Position numbers and translations under genes: made by a program. DNA of 36,392 bases from Archaeoglobus sp. (GTDB lineage Archaea; Halobacteriota; Archaeoglobi; Archaeoglobales; Archaeoglobaceae), in NCBI GenBank assembly GCA_017656505.1, contig JACDNU010000025.1, forward strand, positions 1-36,392, given 5' to 3'. Below the pieces are notes generated by a model, which had not been told where the DNA came from, ran no database searches, and saw nothing but the letters and a program-made list of their open reading frames with translations. This document shows, in pieces, positions 61 to 33,187 of the stretch (position 1 is the first letter of the stretch; each line of letters opens with the position of its first letter).

Positions 61-100
61 AGGAAAGACGAGGGAAAGACGAGGAAAAGCAAGGAAAAAG
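61..100 (+). repeat. Phased purine-rich tandem repeat, period 10-11 bp
   Basis: Four degenerate units, GGAAAGACGAG, GGAAAGACGAG, GAAAAGCAAG and GAAAAAG, lie between the first atpK stop and the ATG at 105. The A-runs are at 64-66, 75-77, 85-88 and 95-99, so they recur once per helical turn. The last units also provide the only weak Shine-Dalgarno-like purines before the small ORF. Confidence 0.7.
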
Positions 101-6286: not shown

Positions 6287-6330
6287 TTCTTTTTGATCTC
6301 TTATTTTTCTTTATTTCTTTTTATTTCCTA
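6287..6330 (+). terminator. T-rich terminator of the ATP synthase operon
   Basis: Directly after the atpD stop comes a run of oligo-T stretches with no hairpin, typical of archaeal termination. From 6301 the tract is organised as three near-decamers, TTATTTTTCT, TTATTTCTTT and TTATTTCCTA, so T-runs recur every 10 bp. A TTTAACYCT-type degenerate repeat continues to about 6394 and runs into the end of the convergent gene. Confidence 0.7.
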
Positions 6331-6378
6331 ATTCTCTTTAAACTCATTAGCTTTCTTTAACTTTAACTCTTTAACCCT

Positions 6379-7512: not shown

Positions 7513-8571
7513 ATGATTATGAGGGTGGGCATTCTGTCAAGATGGAATGCCACTTGTGGGGTTTCGTTGCATGCTGAACTCATCGCTTGGGAGTTCATCA
7601 AGATGGGCTTGGATGTAAGAATCTTCGCCCCCTATATCCGCACTGCAAACCGCTGGTGGCACCATCGAATCATCAAGGAAGATGAGCCTTTCGTAACCAG
7701 ATGCTACTCTGAACTGAGGCCGAGGGACTTCTCAGGGGGCAGTCTCGAGTTTGATAAGATTGTGAAAGAGAAGTTTGACTTTTTCATTGTGGAATCTTAC
7801 ACGAGCATCCCATACACCGAGGTTGAAAAGTTGGTTGAAAAGTTGGACTGTTTTAAGATAGTTGTTATCCACGAGGGCAGCAGGGCGGACATAAGATATC
7901 TCGATCTCAGAGTATTCGACTCCATAGTCGTTTTTGACGAGAGGTACATCAACGAAATGCTTCCCGAATACCACGATATCGCTAAAATAATACCCTATCC
8001 CTGCCATCCCGTCGAGAAGGGGAGCAGAAAGTTTGCAGAAGACCGCCTTACCTTCTTCAGTTTCGGCAGACAGCCCGTTGTTGAATATGCCGACTACATC
8101 GAGGCTTTAGAGTGGTTATCGAGGAAATACGACTTCGTTTACAAGATAGTCAGATCTGACGGCTTCCTGCCTTTCGATAAGCCATGGATCGAGCAGAGCA
8201 ATGGTAAGATTCCTAACAGCGAGCTTTATTCGTATCTACATTCAGCCGACATTCATCTATTGCCGAAGGGAAACACGAGCTACGTCGTGGTTTCCTCAAC
8301 CCTCTGCCAGTGTCTGGGAAGTCTGGTGCCAACAGTCGTACCTAATACGAGGCATTTCGAGAAAGTCGACAAGGAAGCGGTAGTAATCTACAAAAGCGTT
8401 GAAGAGCTTAAAGAAAAGCTTGTGGAGCTTATTGAGAACGAGAACCTGAGAAAGAAAATTGCAAAGGCTGCCGAGAGATACGTGGAAAAAAACAGGGTTG
8501 ACAAAATAGCTAGGATGTTCTTAGATCTCTACACAGATCGGACCCTACTTCACTCTGTTGCTGTCCAGTAA
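7513..8571 (+). CDS. GT4-type glycosyltransferase
   Basis: 352 residues with a GT-B layout. The N-terminal Rossmann half begins MRVGILSRWNATCGVSLHAELIAWEF, with the glycine and His of the acceptor-side loop. The C-terminal half contains LTFFSFGRQPVVEYADYIEAL, SYLHSADIHLLPKGNTSYVVVSS and PTVVPNTRHFEKVDKEAVV, typical of GT4 nucleotide-sugar binding, and it ends with the usual helix (LIENENLRKKIAKAAERYVE). The donor is probably a GDP- or UDP-sugar; mannose is suggested only by the neighbours. An alternative start is ATG 7519, two codons in. Its last 27 bases overlap the 3' end of the GH130 gene on the other strand. Confidence 0.85.
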   Translation: MIMRVGILSRWNATCGVSLHAELIAWEFIKMGLDVRIFAPYIRTANRWWHHRIIKEDEPFVTRCYSELRPRDFSGGSLEFDKIVKEKFDFFIVESYTSIPYTEVEKLVEKLDCFKIVVIHEGSRADIRYLDLRVFDSIVVFDERYINEMLPEYHDIAKIIPYPCHPVEKGSRKFAEDRLTFFSFGRQPVVEYADYIEALEWLSRKYDFVYKIVRSDGFLPFDKPWIEQSNGKIPNSELYSYLHSADIHLLPKGNTSYVVVSSTLCQCLGSLVPTVVPNTRHFEKVDKEAVVIYKSVEELKEKLVELIENENLRKKIAKAAERYVEKNRVDKIARMFLDLYTDRTLLHSVAVQ

Positions 8572-20154: not shown

Positions 20155-21294
20155 ATGGAAGTCTACGATTTTTATAATATAGCCATCATAACATCCGTTG
20201 CTTTCGCCTCTCCAATCCTCGCAGAGAGATTGAGGGTTCCAGCTGTTGTAGTTGAGATAGTTGCCGGAATAATTCTTGGTGTGAGCTTTTTGAATCTCAT
20301 AAAAAATTCTGAGTGGGTCTCTTTTCTCTCCGCTCTGGGTTTGATATTTCTTATGTTTCTATCGGGTCTTGAAATCGATTTCAACCTTCTGCTAAAAAAG
20401 GAGAACGTTTTCAGACCCCTTATCTATCTATCCATCTCCTTTTCACTCGTCCTCCTTATAACTAGGCTTCTCGGACTGGATTTCATCTACGCGATACTTC
20501 TCACCAATGTCTCAGTTGGAATAGTTATGCCCACTTTGAGGGAGTTGAAGATTGAGACGAGCAATTTCGGACAGGTGGGGATTGTGACCTCTCTGCTAAC
20601 AGATTTCACAACGATGTTCCTGCTTTCGATTTACGTAATCCTTCTTACAACTGAGGGCGGAATCTTGCAGATTGCACTTCCTTTTGGCATATTCACAATC
20701 TTCATTCTTTCCTATTATCTGGGAAGACTGGCAATCTGGTATTTTCCCGACTTCATGTCAAAGTGGTTTGAAGAGGATCCGATGGAACTTGGAGTTAGAG
20801 GCTCCATCGCCATAATCATCTTTTTCGTTGGTGTATCCTATTTTCTGGGCGTTGAGGCAATTCTTGGGGCGTTTCTGGCCGGAACTCTCTTTTCCCTAAC
20901 CTTTAGATCGGGAGAAGTATTATCTAGAAAACTTTTCGGTATCGGATACGGGTTCCTGATCCCCATATTTTTTATACAAACCGGAGCCTCTACGAAGTTG
21001 ATTTTCGACTTCAGTGCGATTTACTTCATAATTCTTCTCCTTCTCATCGCGTACACGGTCAAGATCTTTCCATCGTTTGTTGTTTTTGGAGATAGGATTA
21101 AAGCTTTGAGTTTTGGAATCTTGCAAACCTCCAAACTAAGTTTAACTATAGCGGCGGTTGAGATAGGTTTCAAGCTCGGCTTAATCTCAAGCTTTGAAAA
21201 AACGAACATAATTCTTTTTACGATTCTAACATCTCTCCTCTCACCAACCCTCTTTAAGTTTTATACGAAGAAGTATGAGAAATTGATTGATTAA
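20155..21294 (+). CDS. CPA2-family cation/proton antiporter (Kef/Na+-H+ exchanger type)
   Basis: 379 residues with about eleven to twelve transmembrane helices (PF00999-type). The N-terminal FASPILAERLRVPAVVVEIVAGIILG and LGLIFLMFLSGLEIDF are classic for CPA2. The ion-site helix contains LLTDFTTMF, so the carboxylate is preceded by Thr, not the Asn or Asp of electrogenic exchangers; Kef-type K+/H+ exchange is therefore plausible but unproven. It lacks its own RCK domain, which is supplied by the preceding gene. ATG 20155 has GGTGAT upstream, so it is translated from the RCK mRNA by a Shine-Dalgarno site. Confidence 0.9.
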   Translation: MEVYDFYNIAIITSVAFASPILAERLRVPAVVVEIVAGIILGVSFLNLIKNSEWVSFLSALGLIFLMFLSGLEIDFNLLLKKENVFRPLIYLSISFSLVLLITRLLGLDFIYAILLTNVSVGIVMPTLRELKIETSNFGQVGIVTSLLTDFTTMFLLSIYVILLTTEGGILQIALPFGIFTIFILSYYLGRLAIWYFPDFMSKWFEEDPMELGVRGSIAIIIFFVGVSYFLGVEAILGAFLAGTLFSLTFRSGEVLSRKLFGIGYGFLIPIFFIQTGASTKLIFDFSAIYFIILLLLIAYTVKIFPSFVVFGDRIKALSFGILQTSKLSLTIAAVEIGFKLGLISSFEKTNIILFTILTSLLSPTLFKFYTKKYEKLID

Positions 21295-21330
21295 GTTAGA
21301 ATTAAGAAGGATTGAATTAAAATTAGAGCA

Positions 21331-21362
21331 GAATTAATTAAAATTAAACGAAAAATAAAAAC
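21331..21362 (-). terminator. T-rich terminator of the EF-2 transcript
   Basis: Read on the minus strand, the 60 bases after the EF-2 stop hold several oligo-T runs (TTTTTATTTTTCG, then TTTAATTTTAATTAATT) and no stable hairpin. The antiporter gene converges from the other side. Confidence 0.6.
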
Positions 21363-21388
21363 TTTGTTAAGCCTAACTCTAGTCTCAC

Positions 21389-23575
21389 TCAGGCAACGAA
21401 GTCTTCAGGTTTTGGAATTTCCAACTTCAGACCCTTTCTCTTCCTGACTTCCATTATGAAATCCTGAAGCATTCCAGAAGGAACTAGCTCAAATCCTGAA
21501 ACTTCGGTGCTCCAGATGGCCTTCCCTGCCGTTGCAGATCTGATGTCTCCGGCGAAACCGAACATCTCCTTAACCGGAGCCTTTGCTATAACCGTTACCA
21601 TGTCTCCCTCCGTTTTCATCTCGAGAACTTGTCCTCTCCTTCCCTGAATCTCCCTCGTCACATTTCCGAGCATGTCTTGAGGCACAGAAATGAAGACCTT
21701 CTGATAAGGCTCAAGCAAAGTCGGATTCGCTTGCAGTATGGCTGCGAATATTGCAGATCTCACTGCCGGGATAACTTGGGCTGGGCCGCGATGCACGGCA
21801 TCTTCGTGCAGCTTGCAATCAACGAGCTTGACTTTAACTCCCATTACCGGCTCCCTTGCCAAAGGCCCTGCACGCATCGCCTCTCTGAAACCCTCTAAAA
21901 TGAGCTCCATCGTCTCGTTCAGGTACTGAATACCTTTCGTTACATCGGTAAAAACGTTTCCTTCGTAGTACTCCTGAACTCCCGCAGCCTCCTCCTTTGT
22001 AAGCCCAGCCTCCTGAAGGAGTCTCCTCCTCTCCTTTTTATCCATTTTCATGTCAACGGTTCCTTCCTTAAATGCCTTAAGTACAGCCTCGGGTAGAGGC
22101 TCGACGACGATGTAAAATCTGTTGTGCTTGTTGGGGCTTTTGCCCTCTACAGTTGGTGAGACAGCAGTCACGGTTTCTCTGAAAACGACTATCGGCGGGG
22201 AGGTTATGACGTCGAGGTTCCTATCTCTTCTTATCTTTTCAACCGTAACTTCTAAGTGAAGCTCACCCATTCCGCTAAGCAGATGCTCTCCCGTCTCCTC
22301 GTTAAGCGTAACTTGCAGCGTTGGATCTTCCTTAGCTATCTGCCTTAAAACTTCGATGAGCTTCGGTAAATCCCTCGGATTCTTTGCTTCGATTGCCATT
22401 GTCACCACCGGCTCGCTTACGTGCTTTATCGCCTCGAAAGGTATGAAATCCTCGAGGTTCGTACATGTCGAGCCGGCAACGGCATCCTTTAAGCCCACAA
22501 CTGCCACGATGTTTCCGGCCGGCACCTCTGGCACGTCAACCCTCCTCGGGCCCATGAAAAGGCCGACATTCTGGATTCTGTTCTTGGCCTTGCGATCGAC
22601 TATGTAAAGCTCCACTCCACCTTTGAGCGTGCCGCTGAAGAGTCTTCCAACAGCTATCTCACCAGCATGCGGATCGGCTACGATCTTCGTGATCATTAAG
22701 GCTATCGGACCTTTAGGATCGCATTTTGCCATCGCTTGGCCCTCAGGGCTCTCAAAATTCCCCTTCCATATGACCCTTATTCTCTCTTTTTGCGCCTGCA
22801 ATGGATTGGGGAGATGCCTGATAACCATGTCCAAAACAACTCTGTGGAGAGGTGATCTCTTCGAAAGCTCGTCAGTCTGGCCGTTCTGGATCATCTCCGT
22901 CACTTCTTTAAATCCAACTCCAGTCTCCTTCATCGACGGAACGCTTACCGCCCACTTGTATAGAGCTGAACCAAAGGCAACGCTTCCCTCTGTAACCTCT
23001 AGCCTCCATTCCTTGTATCTCTCTGGCCTCATCGACTTTATCAGCTTGTTGACGTCATTTATCACCTTTAGCAAACGATTCTGCATCTCTTCTGCAGATA
23101 ATTCGAGTTCTTTAATCAGTCTGTCAACCTTGTTGACGAAGAGAATCGGTTTAACGTTCTCTCTCAGTGCTTGGCGTAATACCGTCTCAGTCTGGGGCAT
23201 TACTCCCTCGACAGCATCGATGACAACTATCGCTCCATCAACAGCTCTCATAGCTCTTGTAACGTCTCCTCCAAAGTCCACATGCCCAGGAGTGTCGATG
23301 AGGTTGATCAGGTATTCTTCACCCTTATATTCGTGAACCATTGAAACGTTCGCAGCGTTGATCGTTATGCCTCGCTCCTGCTCCTGCTCATCGAAGTCTA
23401 GGTAGAGCTGTCTTCCTGCGAGCTCCTCGCTTATCATCCCCGCTCCTGCCAAAAGGTTGTCGCTGAGCGTCGTTTTGCCGTGATCAATGTGGGCAACAAT
23501 ACCCATGTTTCTTATTTTCTCAGGCTTGTACATCAGCTCTGTAATCTTATCGATCATTTTTTTCGCTCTGACCAT
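21389..23575 (-). CDS. fusA: Translation elongation factor EF-2 (aEF2)
   Basis: Translocase GTPase, 728 residues from ATG 23575 ([20 protein letters not shown]). A longer in-frame opening reaches 23671, but it would overlap rps7 and adds an unrelated basic stretch, whereas GGTGG precedes the chosen ATG. G1 AHIDHGKT is at 28-35, with NKVD further on and [10 protein letters not shown] as G3. The diphthamide His lies in [15 protein letters not shown] near residue 600, the substrate of the archaeal diphthamide pathway. No intein. Last gene of the polymerase/ribosomal cluster. Confidence 0.97.
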
Positions 23576-23588
23576 CGCTACCACCTGT

Positions 23589-24170
23589 TTATCTTGCGCT
23601 CTTCGCGACTCTTTCAACTTCTTCCTTCTTCGCCACAGCAAAGCTCTTGCTATCGTTATTTGCTGCAGCAATAATTTCTTCAGCCAAACAAACCTCTATA
23701 CTCTTTTTCGATTTAAAGCTGGCCCTTCTTGCACCTTCAGCTATATTTCTCAGCGCAACATCCAGCCTTCTCAGGCTTGAAGTGTCAACGGATTTTGGCA
23801 CTGCAATTCCGCCATATTTGAGTCTGACTATCTCCTCCCGAGGGCCAGCATTCATAACAGCATCAACCAAAACTTGCAAGGGATTCTGCTTGGTTCTTTT
23901 CTCGATAATCTCAAAAGCCCCTTTAACGATATTATGGGCCAGAATCTTCTTTCCCGTATTTTTCTCCTTTCTCATTACCTTGTTTATCAATCGCTCGACG
24001 ATGAACACCTTTCTTTTTCCAAAGGGAATTTTCGAGTGCCTTCCATGGGTGTGATATACGTATGTCGGCTTTAAAGAAATGTAGTTCTTTAACGCTGGAT
24101 CCTTGATCTCCACCTCATCCGGGTTGTACTTACCAAAAACAAGCAATTCTTCCTCGCTAAAACCGTACAC
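23589..24170 (-). CDS. rps7: 30S ribosomal protein S7 (uS7)
   Basis: 193 residues. Core motifs are [41 protein letters not shown] and [36 protein letters not shown], the archaeal/eukaryotic-type uS7 with an N-terminal extension. It organises the 30S head near the E site. The start is GTG 24170, four to five bases after AGGTGA. EF-2 starts 13 bases after the stop. Confidence 0.97.
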
Positions 24171-24177
24171 GCTTTCA

Positions 24178-24222
24178 CCTCAGTTCGCTTTTTCCTCAAT
24201 TTTACCTCAGTTTTTACCTCAA
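24178..24222 (-). repeat. Repeated TGAGG motif between rps12 and rps7
   Basis: On the minus strand TGAGG recurs four times (plus-strand CCTCA at 24178, 24194, 24205 and 24217), three of them followed closely by oligo-A runs 10-12 bp apart. The repeat nearest rps7 serves as its ribosome site; the one nearest rps12 overlaps its stop codon. Confidence 0.6.
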
Positions 24223-24642
24223 TGGTTTCTCCTTTCTTCCCTTCCAAAGCTCCTTCAGCGATACGTTGTTGACCTTGATGACCTTATATCTGATGCCGGG
24301 AATGTCTCCCATGCTCCTACCCATTCTACCGCCTATCTTTTCCACAATCACTTCATCATGCTCATCTATGAAATTGATCGAGCCATCCCCGGGTGTGAAC
24401 GCTGAAATCTGCTTTCCATTCTTGATGAGCTGAACTCTCACAGCCTTCCTTATCCCCGAGTTCGGCTGCCTTGCCTCGACTCCGAGTTTTTCCAGTACTA
24501 TCCCTCTTGCCATTGGTGCCCCTTCGAGCGGATCCGACTTGACATTGAGCCTGAGCACTCTCCTTACATATCTTTTATCGCTCCATCTGAACTTTTTCTT
24601 CTGTTCGATCAGCTTCCTTCCTGCGAACAAACCTCTGCCCAT
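24214..24642 (-). CDS. rps12: 30S ribosomal protein S12 (uS12)
   Basis: 142 residues of the archaeal uS12 type: [54 protein letters not shown] and [19 protein letters not shown]. It monitors codon-anticodon pairing at the decoding site. ATG 24642 has AAGGTGA upstream. It follows nusA by 41 bases. Confidence 0.98.
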
Positions 24643-24683
24643 TATATCACCTTAACTATTCGTTATTTCAATCCCTTTCACGA

Positions 24684-25103
24684 TCACTTCACGATTATGC
24701 TTTCGATGTCGTGATGCCTTTTGGCCAACTCTTTGGCCTTGTTTATATTTTTGCCTCCTTTGCCTATCACCAGCCCCTTAAGCTGGGGATTGACGCTTAT
24801 TATCGCGTACTTCTTATCATCCTTCTCTTGCAGCTTCACACTGATATTAATCGGTTTAAAAATGTTTACTATGAACTCAACCGGATCGTCTGAATATTCT
24901 ACAACTTCAATCTTCTTGCCTATAAGCTCCCTTGTACGCTCGATGTTTATTCCACCTTTGCCTATCGCAGTCCCCATATCCCCTTTCTTAACAACAAAAA
25001 CAACCTTGTCATCTTGCACAACACAATCCTTAACGCTTGCTCCGGTTATGCTTTCAAAAAGGGTTAAAAATCTAATACTCTCAGCTGAAAGTTTAACTCC
25101 CAT
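24684..25103 (-). CDS. nusA: Archaeal NusA-like transcription factor, KH domains
   Basis: 139 residues comprising two KH domains with GXXG loops in AIGKGGINIERTREL (46-60) and VIGKGGKNINKAKEL (112-126). It lacks the S1 and N-terminal polymerase-binding domains of bacterial NusA, which is normal for archaea. Its place between rpl30e and rps12 is the canonical archaeal one. A promoter element 33 bp upstream suggests that nusA-rps12-rps7-EF2 can also be transcribed independently of the polymerase genes. Confidence 0.95.
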   Translation of the reverse strand: MGVKLSAESIRFLTLFESITGASVKDCVVQDDKVVFVVKKGDMGTAIGKGGINIERTRELIGKKIEVVEYSDDPVEFIVNIFKPINISVKLQEKDDKKYAIISVNPQLKGLVIGKGGKNINKAKELAKRHHDIESIIVK

Positions 25104-25131
25104 ATTATCAGCCTCTGTTTTGGCTTTTTGA

Positions 25132-25140
25132 CTTATAAAA
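25132..25140 (-). promoter_or_regulatory. Internal TATA box upstream of nusA
   Basis: TTTTATAAG on the minus strand is centred 33 bp before ATG 25103, in the 121-base spacer after rpl30e, which is unusually long for this operon. Confidence 0.55.
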
Positions 25141-25224
25141 GCTTAGTATCTCCCTTTTCATCTACTCTTCTTACTTGTCTTTTTAACTACGCTCTCGAAC
25201 TTAAAGCCCCTCAAACCTCACAAA

Positions 25225-25515
25225 CTATGAAACTGCGCTCAGAATCTCTGAATCACCTGGATCGATTATTGCAAGCATTGAAACGCCAAAAGGCTTTCCG
25301 CATGTCGCTCCGAGATCCATGTTGCTGCCGTTATAGGTTATCACCGGCACATCAAATCCCTTGAGTTCCTCAAAAAACTCCTCTGGGCAATTAGCTGCCA
25401 TTACAACTAGTTTCACATCACCATTTTTCAAAGCCTTCAGTGTTCTTTTAGCTCCGAGATAAACCTTTCCAGTGTTTAAAGCTTTTCTCAAAGCCTTCTC
25501 AACATCGATCTTCAT
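25225..25515 (-). CDS. rpl30e: 50S ribosomal protein L30e (eL30)
   Basis: 96 residues with the L7Ae/L30e fold: KALNTGKVYLGAKRTLKALKNGDVKLVVMAANCPEE and GSNMDLGATCGKPFGVSMLAI. It is found next to rpoA'' in many archaea. AGGGGTGA lies 7 bases before ATG 25515. Normal length. Confidence 0.97.
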   Translation of the reverse strand: MKIDVEKALRKALNTGKVYLGAKRTLKALKNGDVKLVVMAANCPEEFFEELKGFDVPVITYNGSNMDLGATCGKPFGVSMLAIIDPGDSEILSAVS

Positions 25516-25560
25516 GTTCTTTCACCCCTTGATTCTTGGTTTTTTGTTTTTAGCTAACTC

Positions 25561-25597
25561 TACTTTTCTTTACTCTTCCTTACTTTTCCTTACTTTT

Positions 25598-25600
<3 letters not shown>
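25561..25600 (-). repeat. Decamer tandem repeat between rpoA'' and rpl30e
   Basis: Four consecutive 10-bp units on the plus strand: TACTTTTCTT, TACTCTTCCT, TACTTTTCCT, TACTTTTCTA. The period is exactly 10 bp, and the last unit includes the rpoA'' stop codon (TAG at 25598-25600, minus strand). Confidence 0.8.
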
Positions 25601-29379
<3,779 letters not shown>

Positions 29380-29384
29380 CCTAA

Positions 29385-29424
29385 CACCTCAAAACATCTT
29401 AAAACACTTCAAAACACCTCAAAA
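29385..29424 (-). repeat. Four-unit SD-like decamer repeat before rpoA'
   Basis: Read on the minus strand the units are TTTTGAGGTG, TTTTGAAGTG, TTTTAAGATG, TTTTGAGGTG, each exactly 10 bp, filling the rpoB'-rpoA' spacer. Every unit carries a Shine-Dalgarno-like GAGGTG variant and a T4 tract in helical phase. The nearest unit ends 5 bases before the rpoA' ATG and is its ribosome site. Confidence 0.85.
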
Positions 29425-29431
29425 TTTCTAA

Positions 29432-31243
29432 TTATGCCTTATCACCTAAAATCAGCCTTGGAGCCACCATCATCGATTTCAGCTCATCGAGCAAAAGCTT
29501 GAAAGCGTAGCTCATCACAACTCTGTGGATGTTCGTGTCATCATCGCAAACATGGCAGTATGCGGTATGCTTTCTGTAATCGAAGGTTGCTACATGACCG
29601 CAATTTCCGCAAACGTACACTTCTACTTTATCCGATTCTTCGAGCAATCTGTCCTTCAGCAGCAGAGCAGCACCGTGGCCTATGAGCACATCCCTCTCCA
29701 TCTCTCCGAATCTTAGACCGCCTTTTCTTGCTCTTCCCTCTGTCGGCTGTCTTGTCAAAACCTGAACCGGTCCCCTGCTTCTTGCGTGAATCTTGCTCGA
29801 TGCCATGTGATACAGCTTTTGATAGTATATAACTCCCACAAAGATGTCAGCCACGAATCTCTTGCCGGTTATGCCGTCGTACATTACTTCTTTGCATGTA
29901 TGCGAGAATCCGTACTTTTTCAGAGCTTCTCTCAAATCCTTCTCTTTTTCGCCATAAAATATCGTTGCATCTATCCTCCTTCCTTCTAAAGCTCCAACCT
30001 TGCCACCAATCATCTCTAAAACATGCCCGACTGTCATTCTCGATGGAATGGCATGGGGGTTGATTATTATATCAGGCACAATCCCGCTTTCGGAGAAGGG
30101 CATGTCCTCTTCGGGAACTATAAGCCCGATCACTCCCTTCTGGCCGTGCCGAGAAGCGAACTTGTCGCCCAGTTCCGGAATTCTGAGATCCCTAACCCTA
30201 ACCTTGGCAAGCTTCGAACCACCTTCCGATTGGGCGAGAAAAACTTTATCGACAATCCCTTTCTCATTTGATCGCATGGTTATGGACGTCTCCCTCCTCT
30301 TTTGCGGGGAAATTCCCAATTCTGTAGGTTCTTCCAGAAATCGAGGTGGAGATGTTTTTCCTATTAAAACATCATCTGGCCCAACCTCCGTCTCAGGAAA
30401 GACTAAACCATCTTCGTCAAGATGTGCGTAAGCTTCCGCACCTCTGAAACCGGAGATATCAGCCCCGGGGATTTCAAACTTGTCTTCCTGACCTCCCGGA
30501 TATCGCATCTCTTCGGTTTCGTAGGTTCTGAAGAAGTGACTCCTTCCGAGTCCCCTTTCTATGCTCGCTTTGTTGAAGATCAAAGCATCTTCAATGTTAT
30601 ATCCCTCGTAGCTTATCACCGCCACAACAAAATTCTGGCCCGCGGGCCTTTCATCGAACTTTATCTCAAGCTGCGTATCCGTTGTCACTATCGGTATCTG
30701 CGGGTAATGCAACAAATGCCCCCTTGTGTCTGCTCTCCAGTCGAGGTTCGAGAAAGGCAAGCCTAAGCTTTGCTTGATCATTGCAGCCCCCATAGTATTC
30801 CTCGGCGATGCATTATGCTCCGGATAAGGAATGGAGCCTGTGCAGATTCCCACAATAAGGGCAGGATCAAGCTCCAGATGAGTGTGCTCAGGAGTTAAGT
30901 CCTCCTCGTTAACGGCTATGTAGGCGTTCTCCTCCTCCTCCGAATCGAGGAACTCGATAACTCCGATCTTCACGAGATCGTCAAAGGTTATCTCCCCAGA
31001 CTTCAGAAGCTCTATATGTTCGGGTTTTACAGCTGGTTGTCCGCCTCTTACGACGATTAAAGGTCTTCTTGCCCTTCCCGCATCGGTATTAATCCTTACT
31101 TCATTTGAATCCTCATAGTAGACAACATTAACCTGAGTTGAAATTTTTCCGGCTCTTCTGAGCCTTCTTATGTGATTTGCAAGTTTCTCTCCATCTTCAT
31201 AAAATCCGATCAGAGCTCCGTTAACGTAAACCCTGGCTTTCAT
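29432..31243 (-). CDS. rpoB1: DNA-directed RNA polymerase subunit B' (C-terminal half of B)
   Basis: 603 residues, equivalent to the catalytic and wall part of bacterial beta. Visible features: [32 protein letters not shown], the [24 protein letters not shown] segment with the conserved Lys residues near the active site, and the C-terminal zinc site C545, C548, C563 and C566. The split from B'' at this point is characteristic of methanogens and Archaeoglobales, one reason for the taxonomic guess. ATG 31243 follows rpoB'' by 18 bases, with GGAGGGGATAAG as a strong ribosome site. Confidence 0.98.
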
Positions 31244-31261
31244 CTTATCCCCTCCTTCTCC

Positions 31262-32791
31262 TTAGCCTCCTTTTATCGGCTCAACGCCCAAGTCGAAGAG
31301 CGTCTCAAGAACTTCCTTCTCATCCGTGCCAACGCTAACCTCAGCATACTGGGCGAAGTTCTTGACTAATCCACAGTTAGGTCCTTCTGGAGTCTCGCTC
31401 GGGCAGATCCTGCCCCACTGGGTTGGATGCAAATCTCTTGCCTCGAAATGAGGCTGAGATCTGGACAACGGAGATATGACCCTTCTGAGATGAGATAAGA
31501 CTGAGATATAGTTGTGCCTATCTATGAGCTGTGAAACTCCAGTCCTGCCTCCAACCCAGTTTCCTGTCGCCATTGGATGCATAATCCTGTCTGTCAGCAC
31601 ATCGCTCCTTACAGCTGTGCTCATTTTCAGCGGTCTTCCCCTAACTTTAGCCCTCTCGAGCTGGTATTTCACATCCTTTATCAGCCTGAGGAAAGCAACG
31701 CGGAAAATCTCTTCCATCAGGTCTCCGGCGAGCTTCAACCTCTTGTTTGCGTAGTGATCCTTGTCATCCTCCATTCTTAAGCCGAGGGTAAGCTCTAAAA
31801 CAGCCTCGGCCATTCTGGCGAGGAAAAAGGCCTTCGCTCTTCTGCTCTCTGGAGTCGTGCCAAGATGCGGCAGGAAGTACTGATCTATCACTTGATTTGC
31901 TCGACTGAGCTTGTATTCCCTACTCTGTCCGGGAGCGACCCTTCTGCCTATAAGCTCGATCGCCTCCTCCTGAGTTTCCACCTCTGCCACCTCGATATTC
32001 TCCAGCATGAACTTCATCATCTCTGGATTTTCGCTCACCATAGTCACTATTTCCTGATCCGTTTCAACACCCAACGCCTTCATCAGCGTTACGAACTGAA
32101 TCGTCTTCGGAATCTGCGGGAATGAGACTTCCAGAATGTTGTTCTTCCCCCTCTCAACGACAACAAGAGCTCTGTAGCCGGATCTCTGGCTGAAAACCTT
32201 GGCTATTTCAATGCTCTCCCCATACCTCTCCTCCTTCTCAAGCAAAATCTTGTTTGGAGCTAAGTCTTCGAGGGTCATCAGGGCTCTCTCGCTTCCGTTG
32301 ATTATGAAATGCCCGCCCGGATCGAGAGGATCTTCCCCAAGCAGAGCGAGCTTTTTCTCGTAGGTTGAAGGTAGAGGATATCTCAATCTTTCAATCGTAT
32401 CATCGATGTTGTCAGGGTGGAGATTGCATCTGCTTGACTTCACCATTATCGGGAGCATCCCAATGGTTACGACTTCCTCCTCAAGTTCTCTGCCTTCATC
32501 TATCACCTGCGCATGCAGATGTACTTTTGCAGCGTACGTCAGATTTCTCAACCTTGCTGTTGAAGGGACAAGAGGAGGTTCAGAGCCATCCGCTTCCCTT
32601 ATTATCGGCCTATCAACCCATATCCTTCCAAGCTTTACGTAGGTGTCTGGGATATCAAGCTCGATCTTTTTCTGTTCGTCTATGACCTTCTGAAGCCCCT
32701 CTTCTATGAACCTGTTAAACGAATCTATCTGATGCCTTACAAGCCTTTCATGGGTGAAATACGCCCTAGCAAGAACTCTCCTATCCAACAT
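31262..32791 (-). CDS. rpoB2: DNA-directed RNA polymerase subunit B'' (N-terminal half of B)
   Basis: 509 residues with protrusion, lobe and fork regions: VRHQIDSFNRFIEEGLQKVI at the N-terminus, GHFIINGSERALMTLEDLAPNKI, and near the C-terminus SHLRRVISPLSRSQPHFEARDLHPTQWGRICPSETPEGPNCGLVKN, the rifampicin-pocket/fork region. It ends where B' begins, so the two form one functional subunit. ATG 32791 has AGGTGTTAAGTA upstream. The 162-base spacer to rpoH is longer than the others in the operon. Confidence 0.98.
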   Translation of the reverse strand: MLDRRVLARAYFTHERLVRHQIDSFNRFIEEGLQKVIDEQKKIELDIPDTYVKLGRIWVDRPIIREADGSEPPLVPSTARLRNLTYAAKVHLHAQVIDEGRELEEEVVTIGMLPIMVKSSRCNLHPDNIDDTIERLRYPLPSTYEKKLALLGEDPLDPGGHFIINGSERALMTLEDLAPNKILLEKEERYGESIEIAKVFSQRSGYRALVVVERGKNNILEVSFPQIPKTIQFVTLMKALGVETDQEIVTMVSENPEMMKFMLENIEVAEVETQEEAIELIGRRVAPGQSREYKLSRANQVIDQYFLPHLGTTPESRRAKAFFLARMAEAVLELTLGLRMEDDKDHYANKRLKLAGDLMEEIFRVAFLRLIKDVKYQLERAKVRGRPLKMSTAVRSDVLTDRIMHPMATGNWVGGRTGVSQLIDRHNYISVLSHLRRVISPLSRSQPHFEARDLHPTQWGRICPSETPEGPNCGLVKNFAQYAEVSVGTDEKEVLETLFDLGVEPIKGG

Positions 32792-32794
32792 TAC

Positions 32795-32914
32795 TTAACA
32801 CCTCTTAACCTCTAAATTTTTTAGAAATGGTCTAGAATTTCTAGAACTCTCTCCCAGATTCTCAAAAGTAAACTCGATACTACAAACTAATCCTAAAAAA
32901 TCATTCAAGTCCAT
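32795..32914 (-). CDS. Possible 39-aa ORF between rpoH and rpoB''
   Basis: ATG 32914 opens 39 codons (starting MDLNDFLGLVCSIEFTFENL), ending TGT TAA just before the rpoB'' ribosome site. GGAGTG touches the start codon, too close for a standard site. A 15-bp palindrome (32831-32845) lies inside it. It may be chance in an otherwise empty spacer; comparison with relatives would decide. Confidence 0.2.
   Translation of the reverse strand: MDLNDFLGLVCSIEFTFENLGESSRNSRPFLKNLEVKRC
32831..32845. repeat. 15-bp palindrome in the rpoH-rpoB'' spacer
   Basis: TCTAGAA, one central base, TTCTAGA: perfect 7-bp arms. It could be a protein site or a small RNA hairpin in the leader of rpoB''. Confidence 0.5.
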
Positions 32915-32953
32915 CACTCCATTTCCGTTTTCATATTTCTTATTCTTAAATTT

Positions 32954-33187
32954 TTAAACAACAAGTCTGTAAACTATCGACTTTCCGGAGGTGGGACTTT
33001 CCCTCTCTACCCTAACTATATCTCCCACCTTTGCTCCTATTTCCTTTGCAATCGGATCATCAACCTTGATCTTTGGTAACTGCTCTTTGTTCAGCCTCAG
33101 GGTTTCTAAGATCTTCTTTGCCTCCTCTTCCGACAGAAGCTCATGCTTGGGTACGAGTATATGATCTTGCAGCCTAATCTTGCTCAT
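32954..33187 (-). CDS. rpoH: DNA-directed RNA polymerase subunit H
   Basis: 77 residues from ATG 33187 (MSKIRLQDHILVPKHELLSEEE), the RPB5 C-terminal-domain homologue at the lower jaw. An in-frame GTG at 33196 falls inside the GGAGTGA ribosome site, so the ATG is preferred. Motifs HILVPKHELLSEEEAKKIL and DPIAKEIGAKVGDIVRVERESPTSGKSIVYRLV are typical. It heads the polymerase operon and lies only 27 bases after the tRNA-Lys gene. Confidence 0.97.
   Translation of the reverse strand: MSKIRLQDHILVPKHELLSEEEAKKILETLRLNKEQLPKIKVDDPIAKEIGAKVGDIVRVERESPTSGKSIVYRLVV

Follow-up and report, generated by a model that had tools for sequence, protein, structure and literature searches.

The four tandem 10-bp units located between rpoB' and rpoA' at positions 29385-29424 of the window (the whole stretch of 36,392 nucleotides analysed here) are best explained, with a probability that we put at about 0.8, by a lineage-enriched and largely homology-independent process of short tandem duplication, which enlarges intergenic spacers and in this case copied the rpoA' ribosome site by chance. 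The repeats look more like the mark of DNA mutation in this heat-loving archaeon than like a ribosome-binding device.

The array between rpoB' and rpoA'

Read 5' to 3' on the minus strand from 29424 to 29385, the array has the sequence TTTTGAGGTG TTTTGAAGTG TTTTAAGATG TTTTGAGGTG, followed by TTAGG and by the ATG of rpoA'. Unit 1 (29415-29424) is identical to unit 4 (29385-29394), unit 2 (29405-29414) carries one substitution, and unit 3 (29395-29404) carries two. Unit 4 is the Shine-Dalgarno (SD) sequence of rpoA' (GAGGTG, 5 nt before the ATG); it is common to relatives and is located where the site belongs, in agreement with the original prediction that the final unit serves as the ribosome site of rpoA'. 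GAGGTG is intact in units 1 and 4, and its core is lost in units 2 and 3. The array also contains four T4 tracts, spaced exactly 10 nt apart. The upstream gene rpoB' (29432-31243, minus strand; Pfam Rpb2 domains 4-7) ends with a TAA stop codon at 29434-29432, and the downstream gene rpoA' (26746-29379, minus strand; Pfam Rpb1 domains 1-5) starts with the ATG at 29379. The array had been described as filling the spacer; it does lie inside it, but covers 40 of the 52 bases. The existence of the four tandem units is confirmed by the reading of the minus strand, by Tandem Repeats Finder (29383-29424, period 10, 4.2 copies) and by the autocorrelation score of 17, a value that 20,000 dinucleotide shuffles of the 52-nt spacer never attained. 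The genes around the array follow the order rpoB'', rpoB', rpoA', rpoA'', L30e, nusA, S12 and S7, where the gene between L30e and S12 is presumed to be nusA from its position in such an operon. The nearest named relatives of the window's genome (hereafter G000) are Archaeoglobus metagenome genomes. No RNA family was detected at Rfam gathering scores over 21000-33000, and neither a sigma-70-like promoter nor an intrinsic terminator was predicted at the array, the promoter model being a bacterial one and hence little informative for an archaeon.

We compared the region upstream of rpoA' in 30 loci, 29 of them from relatives and one from the window's genome. Most have no more than a few bases between the end of rpoB' and the start of rpoA', and the stop codon of rpoB' is often found within TGAGGTG. 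Species of the window's genus have longer spacers, which differ from one species to the next (16, 39, 41, 52 and 63 nt). G003 (locus L082), whose rpoA' is 98% identical to that of G000, is without the array and has one unit only, ATTTTGAGGTGTTAG, at the same distance from the ATG; the counterparts of unit 4 read ATTTTGAGGTGTTAGA-ATG in G003 and TTTTTGAGGTGTCAAA-ATG in G001. The whole 40-nt array, with up to 3 mismatches allowed, was found once, in one of six genus genomes. Because G003 has a single unit at the same distance from the ATG and only one genome of six has the array, we regard the ATG-proximal unit as ancestral and the others as added upstream of it. Two SD-like copies are present in the rpoB'-rpoA' spacer of G002 (L084), 24 nt apart, and of G028 (L108), 9 nt apart; these pairs are apparently independent of the array in the window.

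Other arrays in the window

Similar arrays had been proposed at 61-100, 6301-6330, 24178-24222 and 25561-25600. All of them are real, but their units differ from one another and one of them lies between convergent genes. The array in the rpoA''-L30e spacer (25560-25597, minus strand) consists of AAAAGTAAGG units with a period of 10, begins directly after the rpoA'' stop codon and ends more than 40 nt before the start of L30e; it is present in one of six genus genomes, and the spacer has a length of 82 nt versus 28, 15 and 16 nt in orthologs. The array associated with the rps12-rps7 spacer (24171-24223, minus strand) is composed of TTGAGGTAAAA-like units of approximately 11 nt and straddles the rps12 stop codon, in a spacer of 43 nt versus 4, 11 and 4 nt in orthologs. 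In both cases the array borders on or overlaps the stop codon of the gene before it, and the coding end seems to have been copied into the spacer. A third array (6297-6327, period 10) lies in the spacer 6287-6378, which separates convergent genes, so that no ribosome site is needed there. The purine-rich array at 61-100 (plus strand), upstream of an open reading frame that starts at 105, has AGGAAAGACG-like units of 10-11 nt.

Genome-wide extent of the arrays

The survey of G000 covered the window and twenty 20-kb stretches (436 kb of 2.52 Mb); the samples of other genomes comprised 239 kb of G003, 327 kb of G001 and 400 kb of each of the remaining ones. Genes were called with our own caller based on codon usage, not taken from annotation. 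N-free spacers of 15-400 nt were scored for ungapped tandem similarity at periods of 6-30, with dinucleotide shuffles as the null model and a threshold score of 11. The outgroup set (L007-L080, mostly around the rpo operon, with the gene model trained per locus) provides a rough comparison.

An array with a score of at least 11 was found in 63 of 322 spacers of G000 versus 3.0 expected (62 when the periods are limited to 20). Thus, the claim of a recurring spacer architecture in this genome is upheld, and the rpoB'-rpoA' spacer is not unique. The enrichment extends to co-directional (35/212), divergent (12/51) and convergent (16/59) spacers. The numbers of array-bearing spacers elsewhere (expected values in parentheses) are 18/145 (0.9) in G003, 12/194 (1.0) in G001, 11/217 (1.2) in G005, 5/217 (0.6) in G009, 4/213 (0.9) in G015 and 4/184 (0.4) in G035; the outgroup loci have arrays in 17 of 323 spacers (3.0 expected), concentrated in L018 and L036 with four each. 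Judged by eye rather than by formal clustering, the units of the 63 arrays of G000 are unrelated between loci, as expected of duplicated adjacent DNA. The orthologous spacers of near relatives are without the array and shorter. The periods are spread over approximately 6-14, centred on 9-11, with 10 as the commonest value and no second peak near 21. A period fixed at 10 is incompatible with this spread, and nothing sets 10 apart, since the centring on 9-11 is in part an effect of the scoring, in which a pair of short copies stays below the threshold. Of the 82 G000 arrays, 28 contain approximately three copies or more.

Two side observations concern particular loci. L036 (Candidatus Methanoxibalbensis ujae) has arrays in 4 of 10 spacers, including 7836-8000, one of them with about six 15-nt units, and its lineage may be another duplication-rich one. 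The arrays L127:14690-14788 and L125:7996-8070 are built of the units TTTAAATACA and GTTTTAAATA, respectively, which we take to resemble the archaeal TATA element, and this suggests duplicated promoter elements.

Exact duplications: density, size and edges

Exact duplications with a period of at least 8 are strongly over-represented in the spacers of G000 (50 in 35.6 kb versus 2.2 expected, i.e. 1.40 per kb, found in 18 of the 21 stretches) and of G003 (24 in 14.9 kb versus 1.0 expected, i.e. 1.61 per kb). All 24 duplications of G003 are located in 12.1 kb of main-contig spacer; the 2.8 kb of spacer on C1-C12, mostly small contigs, contains no such duplication. The densities in five other Archaeoglobaceae are 0.31 per kb in G001, 0.45 in G005, 0.16 in G009, 0.19 in G015 and 0.24 in G035, and the outgroups have 0.15. 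Counted by spacer, exact duplications are present in 63 of 467 in G000 and G003 together versus 18 of 411 in G001 and G005 (Fisher p 2e-6). The units responsible for the excess measure 6-13 bp in G000 and up to 14 bp in G003, with none longer.

The edges of the duplications were compared with those of simulated blunt duplications. No extra match beyond the unit was found in 43% of 74 duplications versus 49% in the simulation, and at least three extra matched bases in 23% versus 11%. The frequency of the longer matches, twice that of the blunt null, indicates that some homology-guided slippage contributes.

Spacers of different species, those of G003 included, are too diverged for base-by-base alignment. 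Length tests, from which ortholog pairs with a spacer longer than 330 nt were excluded, revealed that the array-bearing spacers of G000 are longer relative to their orthologs than the array-free ones (Mann-Whitney p 0.002 against G003, 0.015 against G001 and 0.001 against G005), a link that is inflated because longer spacers offer more room for an array.

The coding DNA of G000 contains 24 in-frame exact duplications versus 2.7 expected from codon shuffling, and 11 out-of-frame ones versus 4.7, which is also an excess, if a weaker one. Such an in-frame bias is expected of a general process filtered by selection. In-frame coding duplications have nearly the same density in G000 (0.063 per kb) and in G005 (0.066 per kb), despite a threefold difference in spacer density, which places the difference between the genomes mainly in the spacers. 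A mere increase in the rate of mutation would lift the coding and the spacer densities alike, so the tolerance or the targeting of spacers may differ as well.

Alternative explanations

The array could be read as a set of tandem SD units that recruit or hold ribosomes, by standby or reloading, and thereby raise or couple the translation of rpoA', but this seems to us improbable. Units 1 and 4 do keep GAGGTG, the latter at normal SD spacing, and the SD-like pairs of G002 and G028 agree with such a role; so does, as at most a weak trend, the number of additional SD cores found 18-60 nt ahead of starts in G000 (19 in 165 spacers versus 12.8 in shuffles), although in other genomes these cores are at chance level. 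Against it, units 2 and 3 have no SD core, and a second SD copy is missing from 27 of the 30 rpoB'-rpoA' loci (relatives or self). Unit 4 is an ordinary SD site, but copies upstream of such a site, as seen here, do not recur at other starts. The original prediction had a repeated ribosome-binding motif as the organizing feature of the arrays, yet an SD core is repeated in at least two units in only 3 of 48 co-directional arrays of G000 and in 0 of 38 of the genus members G003, G001 and G005, and the pattern GAGGT-N2-8-GAGGT is in no excess over the whole genome (116 occurrences versus 182 in the reversed control). Nor are the arrays concentrated near starts: 13 of 48 extend into the final 20 nt ahead of a start codon, compared with 18.9 expected. 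Divergent and convergent spacers have arrays as often, and so do spacers that lead into no start codon. What the arrays contain, where they lie and how often the pattern occurs in the whole genome led us to reject tandem ribosome sites. Helically phased T4/A4 tracts, which would curve the DNA and, for instance, position archaeal histones within spacers or make RNA polymerase slow down there, are a far less probable explanation still. The exact 10-nt spacing of the four T4 tracts before rpoA', the commonest array period of 10 and the presence of A4/T4 in at least two units of 38 of 82 arrays agree with it; however, any A4/T4 tract is found in 44 of 82 arrays versus 47.6 expected from random spacer segments, and the spread of the periods (about 6-14, with no second peak near 21) is unlike helical phasing. 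As the tracts are no commoner than in random segments, we consider them copied, not chosen: the phased tracts of the original prediction exist, but phasing follows from duplication, and phased A-tracts as a preferred feature of the arrays were rejected on the same count. Common target-site duplications span a range that includes the 8-13 bp lengths of the units, which speaks for the footprints of excised mobile elements as the source of the repeats, but the unit lengths are broadly spread instead of fixed and about a third of the arrays have three or more copies, and we give this source hardly any credence.

Classical replication slippage, which needs short direct repeats that are already present and turns ABA into ABABA, is a more serious contender, if on the whole a rather unlikely one as the general explanation. 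Archaeal replicative polymerases, namely PolB and PolD of Pyrococcus, are reported to slip in vitro (PMC4134008), and ABA to ABABA insertions are given as a main insertion class in rad27-deleted yeast (PMC5677150); the G000 arrays with about three or more copies are also what growth by slippage would give. On the other hand, ABA events require flanking homology, and that of most exact duplications is not above the level of blunt copying. Microhomology slippage explains a minority at most. The likeness to yeast deficient in rad27/FEN1, in which insertions outnumber deletions and short adjacent stretches are duplicated, has a limit in that the yeast events are described as flanked by short direct repeats (PMC5677150), whereas the edges seen here are near the blunt expectation and FEN1 is present: an open reading frame with XPG_N was found in 25 of 25 genomes searched, the duplication-rich ones included. 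The loss of FEN1 was therefore rejected as the cause.

Candidate enzymes

A Y-family polymerase (DinB/IMS, PF00817) is encoded at G000:C7:28246-28692, G003:C40:22787-23230 and G004:C235:2354-2800, and in none of 13 other Archaeoglobaceae searched, a distribution that matches both duplication-rich genomes measured. Among the outgroups, the 20 of 34 genomes with PF00817 have no exact duplications in 12.3 kb of spacer at the sampled loci, and the 14 without it have four in 7.8 kb. As the outgroups with DinB show no excess, DinB is not sufficient and is a lead at most; moreover, it represents one gain on one branch and thus cannot be told apart from the branch's other traits. For NucS_C (PF01939), matches were obtained in G001, G002 and G005, at only 24-36 bits, so that they may be other nucleases; G000, G003 and G004 lack such matches. 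Which of the genomes searched have or lack DinB, FEN1 or NucS does not account for the excess of duplications.

A model of short tandem duplication

We propose that the ancestral rpoB'-rpoA' spacer would have contained one ribosome site (TTTTGAGGTG), a few bases and the ATG, and that copies of the 10-nt stretch were probably added upstream of this ancestral unit. The insertion would have been tolerated because the functional site stayed as far from the ATG as before, and the surplus units may be largely neutral for the translation of rpoA'. The underlying process would act genome-wide on intergenic DNA, adding head-to-tail copies of about 6-14 bp, and would be most productive in G000 and its near relative G003. 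Judging from the edges and sizes of the duplications, the first copy may arise by a mostly homology-independent step limited to approximately one helical turn, for which the filling and resealing of a break whose ends are offset by about one turn, or the rejoining of short flaps, are candidates; two copies could then reach three or four by ordinary slippage. It is possible, although we put this forward with more doubt than conviction, that in one Archaeoglobus sublineage new intergenic DNA stems mainly from an unrecognised mode of blunt, homology-independent tandem copying of 6-14 bp and not from foreign insertion, and that ribosome sites and promoter elements are repeatedly duplicated as a by-product of this copying.

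The arrays share with known short tandem duplications and close direct repeat mutations the head-to-tail adjacent copies, the unrelated units, the predominance of two copies and the lineage-specific occurrence; they differ in that about 20% of spacers bear arrays, that the units do not exceed about 14 bp, that the edges are largely free of homology and that the phenomenon is concentrated in one archaeal sublineage. In the open-licence literature we found no description of tandem SD arrays or of short tandem duplications in archaeal spacers, which is weak evidence of novelty. Of two surveys of prokaryotic repeats (PMC12699852, PMC6749651), one mentions an enrichment of tandem repeats with 6-9 bp units in some prokaryotic phyla, and both give a low overall repeat density for archaea; the accessible text of PMC6749651 contains no occurrence of Archaeoglobus. 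Unlike prokaryotic short tandem repeats and satellites, the arrays reported here are short, imperfect and intergenic.

What deserves attention is how dense, how limited in size and how blunt at their edges the short tandem duplications are in this single sublineage of archaea. They show how intergenic DNA can expand quickly in a compact archaeal genome. The mutation signature is testable (short, blunt, up to about 14 bp) and differs between close relatives, which makes the responsible enzyme trackable. Finally, repeated motifs that resemble ribosome sites or promoters need not be regulatory in such genomes.
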